Assembly: GCA_019695095.1 (NCBI GenBank)
Contig: JAIBAQ010000059.1
Span: 1-32,706, forward strand
Length of the DNA stretch: 32,706 nt
Reading direction: 5' to 3'
Origin: Candidatus Hydrogenedentota bacterium
GTDB lineage: Bacteria > Hydrogenedentota > Hydrogenedentia > Hydrogenedentales > SLHB01
This document shows, one piece after another, positions 3,912 to 22,309 of this stretch. Within the stretch, counting starts at the first letter, position 1. Each line of letters begins with the position of its first letter. Under the pieces are notes generated by a model. It saw only the letters and a list, made by a program, of their open reading frames with translations. It did not search any database and was not told the DNA's origin. The position numbers and the translations under genes were made by a program.

Positions 3912-5465
3912 ATGTGCCGAATCGTCCTATTCCTTTTGCCCGCGATGCTTGTGTTCGCGGAGAACGCTGCGCCCATCGATGCGCCCCAAGGTCCTTTGAC
4001 TTTGCGTGATGCTGTCGTCGCGGCGCTTGCCGGGAATCCACAGTTGGCCACGTTTTCGTATGACATTCGCGTGGGAGACGCGCGCATGCTGCAAGCCCGG
4101 TTGCGCCCCAATCCCGAATTGTCGCTCGAAGTTGAAGACATACGACTGGGCAGTGGCGCAAGGCGCGAATCCACGACACGCGCATTGGGTTTGCGCCCGA
4201 ATGCATGGCTCGATTCGTTGGGGCAATTGAGTGAAGGGGGATCATTTGCCGACGTACTGGCGTCGGGACTGTCGTCAGATGGTGTATCTGCCGAGTTCGA
4301 ACGCGAATCGCAGGCGGGAAGCGGTACATTCGGGAATGTTGAGATGACGCTCTCGCTATCGCAACTGATCGAACTTGGCGGTAAACGCGCCGCTCGTATC
4401 GCGGTCGCGAAGAGCGAACGCGCAATCGCCGAGTGGGACTATGAGGTCGCCCGGTTTGAGGTAGTCGGACAGGTCGTCTCGCGATTTGCGGAGACTCTGG
4501 CCGCGCAGGAGCATCTAAAGCAGGAGCGACAGGTTGTCGAGCTTGCCGAGGCACTGGCAGAAACGGTCGGCCGTTTAGCGGAGGCGGGAAGCGTTTCGCC
4601 CTTGGAAGGACGACGCGCGAGGGCAGAAGCGGAACGCGCGCGAATTGACCTAACACAACGCGAGCGCGAATTGCATCAGGCGCGCGTGCGATTGGCATCG
4701 ACGTGGGGTTCGACGCGGCCCCAGTTTGCGGAGGCCGTGGGGGACATTACGCAAATCGTCGACGTGCCGCCGCTGGACGATCTCCTGGCGCGGCGCGATC
4801 GTCATCCCATGCTGAAACGTTGGGCATCCGAATTGGAGCGTAGAGGTGCAGTCCTCTCGCTTGAGCGGACGAAGCGAGTTCCCGATCTGACATTGCGGCT
4901 GGGCTATCGTGCGACAGCCCTGAATGAAGGCAACGCGGAGAGCATTAGCTTGGGCACCGAGGGTGTCGTTTCCTCACGCACCAATTCGCGTGGAGATGAC
5001 TGGGAGCACTCGCTGGTGCTAGAGGCTTCGATACCATTGCCGGTTCGTGACCGGAACCAGGGGGCAATTCTCGAAGCGGAACTGCAAGAAGAAAAGCTTG
5101 GGGCTGAGCGCCGAGCTTGGGACCATGACCTGATTACCTCGGTGACCGAATCCTATTCCCAAGCACAGGCATCAGCAGAACGCACCGAGTCGCTGGCCGC
5201 GCGTGTATTGCCCGAACTCGAATCGACGTATGCGTTAACGCGCGAAGGATACGAACGAGGCAAGTTTGACTTTCTGGCCGTGCTCGATGCTCAGCGCGCT
5301 GTAGTCAACACCCGCATGGAATTGCTTGAATCCCGAATCGCTTTTCAACTTGCCGTTGCGGATATGGAACGTCTCCTGGGCGCGGGGATTCTTGCAGGCG
5401 TAGACGTTCACGAGCTGACTCACCGCGATACTCAGAATCAACGCAAGGATACGAATCATGAATAA
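3912..5465 (+). CDS. TolC/CusC-like outer membrane efflux channel
   Basis: A 517-residue outer membrane factor of the heavy-metal type. The frame is open from ATG 3879, but ATG 3912 has a GGAG seven bases upstream and yields a signal peptide (MCRIVLFLLPAMLVFA), so it is preferred. After the signal comes LTLRDAVVAALAGNPQL, the usual first helix of the family. Two long alpha-helical, Ala/Glu/Arg-rich repeats follow; the second ends with EGYERGKFDFLAVLDAQR, a hallmark of CzcC/CusC-type proteins. A Ser/Gly-rich insertion around residues 95-140 is longer than usual. The protein would trimerise in the outer membrane and extend into the periplasm to meet the adaptor and pump encoded next. Its stop overlaps the adaptor start by eight bases, so translation is probably coupled. 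Confidence 0.92.
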   Translation: MCRIVLFLLPAMLVFAENAAPIDAPQGPLTLRDAVVAALAGNPQLATFSYDIRVGDARMLQARLRPNPELSLEVEDIRLGSGARRESTTRALGLRPNAWLDSLGQLSEGGSFADVLASGLSSDGVSAEFERESQAGSGTFGNVEMTLSLSQLIELGGKRAARIAVAKSERAIAEWDYEVARFEVVGQVVSRFAETLAAQEHLKQERQVVELAEALAETVGRLAEAGSVSPLEGRRARAEAERARIDLTQRERELHQARVRLASTWGSTRPQFAEAVGDITQIVDVPPLDDLLARRDRHPMLKRWASELERRGAVLSLERTKRVPDLTLRLGYRATALNEGNAESISLGTEGVVSSRTNSRGDDWEHSLVLEASIPLPVRDRNQGAILEAELQEEKLGAERRAWDHDLITSVTESYSQAQASAERTESLAARVLPELESTYALTREGYERGKFDFLAVLDAQRAVVNTRMELLESRIAFQLAVADMERLLGAGILAGVDVHELTHRDTQNQRKDTNHE

Positions 5466-21231: not shown

Positions 21232-21375
21232 GGTGTGCCCCCCCGCTGAAGTACTGCGAGCTACAAATTCGCTGGGGATATTGTACACGAGGCAATACGG
21301 TTGAGGTGAATTCACGGGCATCTTTGAAGACGCAACGGAATCGGAGAGTGGTGATGCATTTGGGAAGTGGGGGAG

Positions 21376-21512
21376 GGCCGCGCAGCGTGTCCCATGCGTT
21401 CCGGGCAAAACACATAGGCGAGGGAGCCAGTATCACGCTGCGCGGCCGGTGTCCTGGTGGTGGAGTCAGCAACCATCAAACCTGTGCAGAGCGCACAGGA
21501 GGAGTGGGGCTA
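21376..21512 (+). ncRNA. Structured element, copy 1 of 2 (undescribed RNA-like repeat)
   Basis: An outer stem of 14 pairs (21376-21389 with 21434-21447) encloses an inner hairpin (21391-21400 with 21409-21418) whose eight-base loop is CCGGGCAA. A conserved linker GAGGGAGCCAGT follows the inner hairpin. The 3' half has GGAGTCAGCAACCA between TGGT and ACCA arms, then a seven-pair hairpin CCTGTGC/GCGCACAGG (21481-21499), then GAGTGGGGCTA. Every piece recurs in copy 2 in the same order. Because arms change together between copies, structure rather than protein appears to be conserved. The strand is not certain: the plus strand is assumed as it reads toward the bacterioferritin gene. I do not recognise the family. 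Confidence 0.55.
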
Positions 21513-21545
21513 CGCTATGGGGAAAACGTCTTGCGCAGAGGGGGG

Positions 21546-21682
21546 AAAGCCGCGCAACGCATCCGAATACTCCGGGCATAGCATTCGGTTGAGGGAGCCA
21601 GTGTCGCGTTGCGCGGCCGATATCCCTGGTGGCGGAGTCAGCAACCAAAAACCTGTACAGACTGCACAGGGGAGTGGGGCTA
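21546..21682 (+). ncRNA. Structured element, copy 2 of 2
   Basis: The same architecture as copy 1, about 170 bases downstream. Outer stem: 21549-21560 with 21606-21617, twelve perfect pairs. Inner hairpin: CCGAAT (21563-21568) with ATTCGG (21583-21588), an A-C mismatch, then CT/AG, and loop CCGGGCAT. Compared with copy 1, at least six pairs differ on both sides yet still pair (G-C to A-T and T-A to C-G in the outer stem; T-A to C-G, G-C to A-T, T-A to A-T and A-T to G-C in the inner stem). The loop, the linker and the 3' GGAGTCAGCAACCA block are unchanged. Confidence 0.55.
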
Positions 21683-22309
21683 ATCTAAGCTCTGCCGAAC
21701 CGGACCTGGCGCGTCCCATGTACCACGAAGAAAGCCTGCTCCATGAGCGGGTTTCCTACGCGAGGGATGGACGGATCGGAAGCGTTCAACACCGGCGTTG
21801 CCGTTGCTGTCATTTCCGTGCCGAGGTCCTTGGAGGCCTCGCGCTCGGCGCACATCCATTCGGATGCGCGGCCGCTTTGCGTTTTCCCAATTCGTGTCAT
21901 CGATTCAACTCTGTTTGAGGTCTGCCTTGTTTACCGCTTGACTAACCTCGTTAAGAGGTATAAAGCAGGTCGCGTGCCAATGGTCATAGATTTCGCATTC
22001 GAGTGACTTAACGTATTTATTTTGAATGATTTAGGTGGCGCAACTCGTGCTTGAGCTGCTTTGCATGATTCTGGCAAGTGCTACCAAAGAGTAGGTGTTG
22101 ATGTTTGAAGTAACGTAATTGTAGGAAATGCATTCTGAGACGAGCCTCAGAATGCGCCGTGTGGCCGCTGATTCAACTCAGCATGGAGTTGCTGAGTGCG
22201 TCGGTGTAATATACGTTTCGGAAACGGATCCGCGAATGAAACGGGGGCGCGATCACCGCGGAAGCCGCAGGCCCTTCGTAAGGAACACAGCGCTCAAAGG
22301 AGACTAATC
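21683..22309. other. Intergenic region upstream of bacterioferritin: no convincing gene, many inverted repeats
   Basis: Open frames at 21743-22006 (plus) and 21685-21900 (minus) lack ribosome binding sites and recognisable domains. The sequence holds a hairpin at about 21848-21870 (CGCACATCC, loop ATTC, GGATGCGCG, one mismatch), a perfect ten-pair hairpin at 22130-22139/22146-22155, and two competing hairpins at 22174-22197. The composition becomes AT-rich after about 21990. It may be the continuation of the tandem structured element or a separate regulatory leader. Confidence 0.5.
21938..21964 (+). promoter_or_regulatory. Possible promoter with a dyad in its spacer
   Basis: TTGACT (21938-21943) and TATAAA (21959-21964) are separated by 15 bases, slightly short of ideal. 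The spacer contains ACCTC-GTTAA-GAGGT, a perfect five-base inverted repeat that could be an operator. It would read toward the bacterioferritin gene 346 bases away. Confidence 0.35.

Follow-up and report, generated by a model that had tools for sequence, protein, structure and literature searches.

A tandem structured RNA with a putative sigma-54 promoter and nitrogen-type activator sites in one family of Hydrogenedentota

Introduction

Several described RNAs resemble the locus reported here in the way they are controlled or laid out. NrsZ of Pseudomonas depends on NtrB/C and RpoN, and processing of this small RNA yields shorter pieces that are active (PMC8395346). GlnZ of the Enterobacteriaceae is an RpoN/NtrC-dependent small RNA derived from the 3′ UTR of glnA (PMC9731577). 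NsiR4 of cyanobacteria is a nitrogen-controlled small RNA that acts alongside small nitrogen-metabolism proteins (PMC9196836), and VcdRP of Vibrio cholerae is a dual-function RNA concerned with carbon metabolism that encodes a 29-aa protein (PMC8672173).

The stretch of DNA that was analysed here, referred to as the window, comprises 32,706 nucleotides of a Candidatus Hydrogenedentota genome. We suggest, with a probability of roughly 0.7, that it contains a nitrogen-regulated transcription unit on its minus strand which yields a trans-acting structured RNA together with a co-made small protein. The Hydrogenedentota are an uncultured phylum, and the organisms considered here are known from metagenomes; within the window, the IspG protein has its nearest named relative in a Candidatus Hydrogenedentota genome, at 87% identity. 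To our knowledge, the phylum has no studied model organism, and a full-text search of the literature for small RNAs of Hydrogenedentes returned nothing relevant.

What the locus would share with NrsZ is a nitrogen-controlled sigma-54 promoter from which a small RNA is transcribed; NrsZ, however, belongs to another phylum, whereas in the window a small open reading frame (ORF) precedes the RNA and ntrC is not adjacent. With GlnZ the locus would share a regulatory RNA that follows a coding region within a single sigma-54 nitrogen-regulon transcript, yet the ORF predicted here encodes a fast-evolving small protein rather than glutamine synthetase, and one relative (G011) has the RNA without any ORF. 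Since NrsZ and GlnZ are sigma-54 nitrogen small RNAs, the kind of RNA proposed here is already known, and the likeness proposed is one of control logic. NsiR4 depends on NtcA and not on sigma-54, in contrast to the sigma-54 promoter predicted here; what links the two is a nitrogen-controlled small RNA accompanied by small proteins. For VcdRP, the parallel is a single transcript with a small protein and a regulatory RNA (translation being predicted for the locus studied here), set in carbon metabolism and with a protein of 29 aa there, and under nitrogen-type control here. We know of no sigma-54 or nitrogen link of VcdRP.

Tandem RNA Modules and Their Orientation

Two tandem segments (21374-21515 and 21546-21686; register 171 bp) share one architecture, as the sequence-only reading of this DNA had held, and a pair-by-pair comparison of the copies recovers exactly the compensatory changes that it had claimed: two pairs of the outer stem and four of the inner hairpin are altered on both sides, all with pairing kept. 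Folded as the plus strand, copy 1 beats 200 of 200 shuffles (z −3.3), and the advantage of copy 2 over its shuffles is moderate (z −1.7). The element had been drawn on the plus strand, an orientation that we revise: among the non-Watson–Crick cells, 11 are G-U on the minus strand against 3 on the plus strand, and the wider core set gives 12 against 6. Because of these counts and the directions of the promoter and the ORF discussed below, the RNA is assigned to the minus strand, and a plus-strand RNA was rejected on the G-U counts and the promoter direction.

Read in this direction, the module transcribed first occupies 21537-21685 (R1 score 154.8, E 6e-36, together with covariation) and comprises a 5′ hairpin (21652-21670), an outer stem (21549-21560/21606-21617) and an inner hairpin (21563-21588). 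Module 2 at 21365-21515, also on the minus strand, is the tandem copy with a pyrimidine-rich 3′ tail (R1 score 159.2, E 4.5e-37); its 5′ hairpin lies at 21481-21499, its outer stem at 21376-21389/21434-21447 and its inner hairpin at 21391-21418. The pyrimidine tail of the module contains a clear U-run in some copies only. Rfam 15 gave no match at the gathering score in the window or at six homologous loci, and its sub-threshold matches were at chance level; the impression that the element is unlike any recognised RNA family is thus upheld.

Covariation and Distribution Among Relatives

When 60 related genomes were searched with blastn, four others from this family proved to contain homologues, the remaining matches listed being short and weak. 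The first alignment holds six minus-strand sequences with 37 pairs; 12 of these pairs are changed on both sides, compared with 4.6 in shuffles, and none of 500 shuffles reaches as high. In a core alignment of 12 homologues, 17 of 24 pairs covary against 5.8 in shuffles (again 0 of 500). These counts, for which structure strings were placed by hand on MAFFT alignments, bear out the proposal of a structured RNA.

A covariance search, as the sequence-only reading had advised, confirms the structured RNA. Model 1, built from the six sequences, detects the element in 12 of the 25 genomes of this Hydrogenedentota family at E < 1e-4 (the E-values are rough, and the genomes are draft assemblies with many contigs), and model 2, built from the 12 core sequences, returns the same 12 genomes. 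Because some matched sequences sat in the alignment of model 2 itself, the search with model 1 is the independent test; it recovered seven genomes that lay outside the alignment of model 1. Weak matches in G001 and G039 were counted as doubtful. In the same order but beyond the family, 43 genomes gave no match that reaches E 0.001, and scanning viral and GTDB contigs for exact motifs yielded nothing. On this comparative evidence, the element is an RNA family that is not in Rfam, shows strong covariation and is confined to one Hydrogenedentota family among the genomes searched.

Each of the 12 genomes carries one locus, with two modules in the window, two or three in G016 and a single one in most genomes. 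What we read by eye as a degenerate third module in G016 (L039 974-1084, contig C176, minus strand; weak model match) lies between two good ones; its stem sequence differs, and GGCTCCC and GCCC are found at the same places.

Invariant Unpaired Sequences as Likely Contact Sites

The unpaired strand GGCUCCCUC lies at 21591-21599 in module 1 and at 21420-21428 in module 2 (minus strand), and in the core alignment its CTCCCT is invariant in all 12 sequences. Both CTCCCT and GCCC are thus kept in a fixed structural setting. As the stems covary while these C-rich unpaired parts stay unchanged, the GGCUCCCUC strand and the GCCC loop are the likely places at which mRNAs or a protein make contact. Targeting of Shine–Dalgarno sequences by GGCUCCCU was assessed with one motif and showed no enrichment (AGGGAGCC ahead of ATG 138 times in RNA-bearing genomes and 138 times in the control); pairing with nine glnK, amtB and activator leaders was no better than with shuffles.

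That neither this motif nor the nine leaders produced an mRNA target is compatible with a different mode of action, in which the modules would serve as a sponge whose C-rich sites titrate an RNA-binding protein under nitrogen stress. The invariance of CTCCCT and GCCC and the tandem modules in the window and in G016 would suit such a role, yet most genomes make do with a single module. GGA is the motif of CsrA, and a sponge of the CsrA type was rejected in view of the lack of GGA conservation in the inner loop. We know of no candidate protein, and we consider a sponge unlikely, while giving it more credit than the 3′ UTR, leader and mobile-element alternatives discussed below.

The Small ORF Upstream of the RNA

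A small ORF of 71 aa with the C-terminal sequence ...GNPLMEQA... is predicted at 21685-21900 on the minus strand from third-position bias and an excess of synonymous changes between G004 and G024, and from a sequence profile. ORFs of 56-71 codons are present at 11 of the 12 RNA loci, G011 being the exception. The deduced protein is mostly variable, with NP and two hydrophobic residues kept near the C-terminus at the 11 loci; it matches no Pfam or NCBIfam entry, and the profile search gave one match per genome with strong scores at RNA loci only (11 of 12). Over the last 22 codons, G004 and G024 differ at codon positions 1, 2 and 3 in 2, 1 and 10 cases (nine synonymous and two nonsynonymous codons), a substitution pattern that is coding behaviour by this comparison. 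In G008, the gap between ORF and RNA (L041, about 4029-4127) is longer by some 100 bp, which direct repeats (GTGCAGGTCAAAA) delimit and which contain GCGCCCATTTGTAATGGGCG as a palindrome; this may be a tiny insertion.

Within one genus, a comparison of G009 with G021 gives identities of 96.6% for the RNA, 62.6% for the ORF and about 45-51% for most of the flanks. Because the identity of the RNA is far above that of the ORF, the RNA is the better-kept product, and it is probably the main product of the unit. This difference bears on the converse arrangement, in which the small protein would be the product and the RNA its 3′ UTR, serving termination and transcript stability but not acting in trans. 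The coding constraint on the ORF and the motif kept at 11 loci agree with such an arrangement, as does the fact that in the closest relatives the module begins where the ORF stops. A long stem followed by pyrimidines, which include U-runs in G011, G008, G009 and G021, moreover looks like a terminator. A terminator, however, needs neither fixed unpaired sequence nor duplicated modules, and G011 combines promoter and RNA with no ORF at all. Together with the far better conservation of the RNA, these points make a mere 3′ UTR improbable in our view.

A Sigma-54 Promoter and Tandem Dyads Shared With Nitrogen Genes

The sequence-only reading had placed the element alone in its intergenic gap; the same gap also holds the small ORF, a sigma-54 promoter and two enhancer-like sites. 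The predicted −24/−12 promoter TTGGCACGCGACCTGCT (21964-21980, minus strand) agrees with the consensus at 12 of 13 positions. Such a promoter with 11-13 of the 13 consensus bases stands upstream of the RNA at 11 of the 12 loci, mostly at a distance of 260 to 310 bases; G008 has a weaker site (9/13) that is backed by the enhancer spacing, and in G011 the promoter adjoins the 5′ end of the RNA directly, with no ORF between them. Across the family, the exact sigma-54 pattern is several-fold commoner than a reversed control. In the orientation of the RNA, 11 of the 12 loci show the order two dyads, sigma-54 promoter, ORF, RNA.

Repeated sigma-54 sites were seen elsewhere in the family: three promoter-like sites stand in a row, 56 bp apart, at G020:C463:49658-49786, and TTGGCATGGCGGTTGCT occurs three times in identical form within 2.3 kb at G013:C353:11263-13593. 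Sigma-54 promoters also precede flagellar rod-like genes in the window genome; a flagellar role was dismissed, as G006 and G016 (the latter 78% complete) have the RNA unit and no flagellin match.

The two enhancer-like dyads, with the consensus CCTACN6GTAGG, are a distal one, CCTACAATTACGTTAC, at 22110-22125 and a proximal one, CCTACTCTTTGGTAGC, at 22080-22095, both on the minus strand; they lie 30-32 bp apart at all 12 RNA loci, at roughly −130 to −148 and −99 to −117 relative to the promoter. All 12 loci score at least 14/20 for the tandem dyads, as do 0.4% of upstream regions after shuffling; the scores of the loci themselves are biased upward, because the consensus was derived from them. 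The dyads were therefore tested elsewhere with a composite dyad-plus-sigma-54 pattern, which matched 28 sites in the 25 genomes against 10 for the reversed control. Eight of these matches are RNA loci, and 12 other sites have tandem dyads, of which three precede glnB/glnK (PII), five precede genes for ammonium transporters (AmtB) and one adjoins a NifA-type activator (542 bits; NCBIfam NifA cut-off 529). A glnK-amtB operon with the dyads (L100) was found independently of the composite search as a match of the simple sigma-54 pattern, and one amtB locus likewise has NifA-like activator sequence on its upstream side. The putative activator sites of the RNA loci are hence common to nitrogen-assimilation genes, the same arrangement recurring at glnK, amtB and NifA-type loci; no glnK or amtB promoter with tandem dyads was located in the window genome itself.

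The classical NifA site is TGT-N10-ACA. As CCTACN6GTAGG is unlike it, the identity of the activator is a guess. At L106 and L266, the gene after a NifA-type one is a shorter sigma-54 activator-like gene with tandem dyads in its own promoter, and at L259 a similar short activator-like gene stands directly before amtB. The best tandem dyad pair seen (19/20; L240, G007:C50) stands before a flavoprotein-like gene; the sigma-54 site there is less canonical.

Proposed Function of the Transcription Unit

Since the same tandem dyads are found at glnK, amtB and NifA-type loci, the element most likely represents a small RNA under nitrogen regulation; a small RNA was among the guesses of the sequence-only reading. 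Under ammonium shortage, a NifA/NtrC-type activator would bind both dyads, which lie about 115 and 145 bp upstream, and turn on the sigma-54 promoter. The predicted transcript, about 590 nt long in the window, would carry the gene for the 71-codon small protein, followed by the two RNA modules, each of which would form a long GC-rich stem enclosing the unpaired GGCUCCCUC strand and the GCCC-loop hairpin. Action in trans is the most likely mode for the RNA, by pairing with G-rich sites in mRNAs or by binding a protein, and the small protein would be a second, co-made product. The sequence data support the fold, the strand, the family-wide conservation, the promoter and enhancer layout, the sites held in common with glnK, amtB and NifA-type loci and the coding signature of the ORF; activator binding, induction by nitrogen limitation, action in trans and any target are what we infer from them. 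More tentatively, and as a possibility that we would not favour at present, the locus may be a dual-function nitrogen-stress gene whose NPLM protein and modular C-rich RNA, with tandem copies adding contact sites, jointly tune ammonium assimilation.

Two further origins and roles raised for the element receive little credit. A riboswitch-like cis-acting leader of the next gene would fit the co-directional genes after the RNA in the window (GH20) and in G004 (secreted protein), but each genus examined has other neighbours, and in G024 and G009 the following gene is convergent with the RNA, so that the orientation is inconstant and such a role is highly improbable. A mobile palindrome (REP-like, MITE-like or an integron attC), to which variable neighbours and tandem modules in two genomes might point, has next to no chance of being correct given one locus per genome and the conserved promoter and enhancer set that accompanies the element; the notion of an intron remnant found no evidence in its favour.

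Significance

The nitrogen-regulated unit proposed here adds an RNA family missing from Rfam, with a concrete regulon assignment, in a little-studied phylum. Through the shared enhancer, tests can be aimed directly at the activator, at the dyad and at the condition that induces the unit. If our reading is true, nitrogen-controlled sigma-54 small RNAs would exist far from the Proteobacteria, with a layout that joins an ORF to the RNA and with tandem modules.
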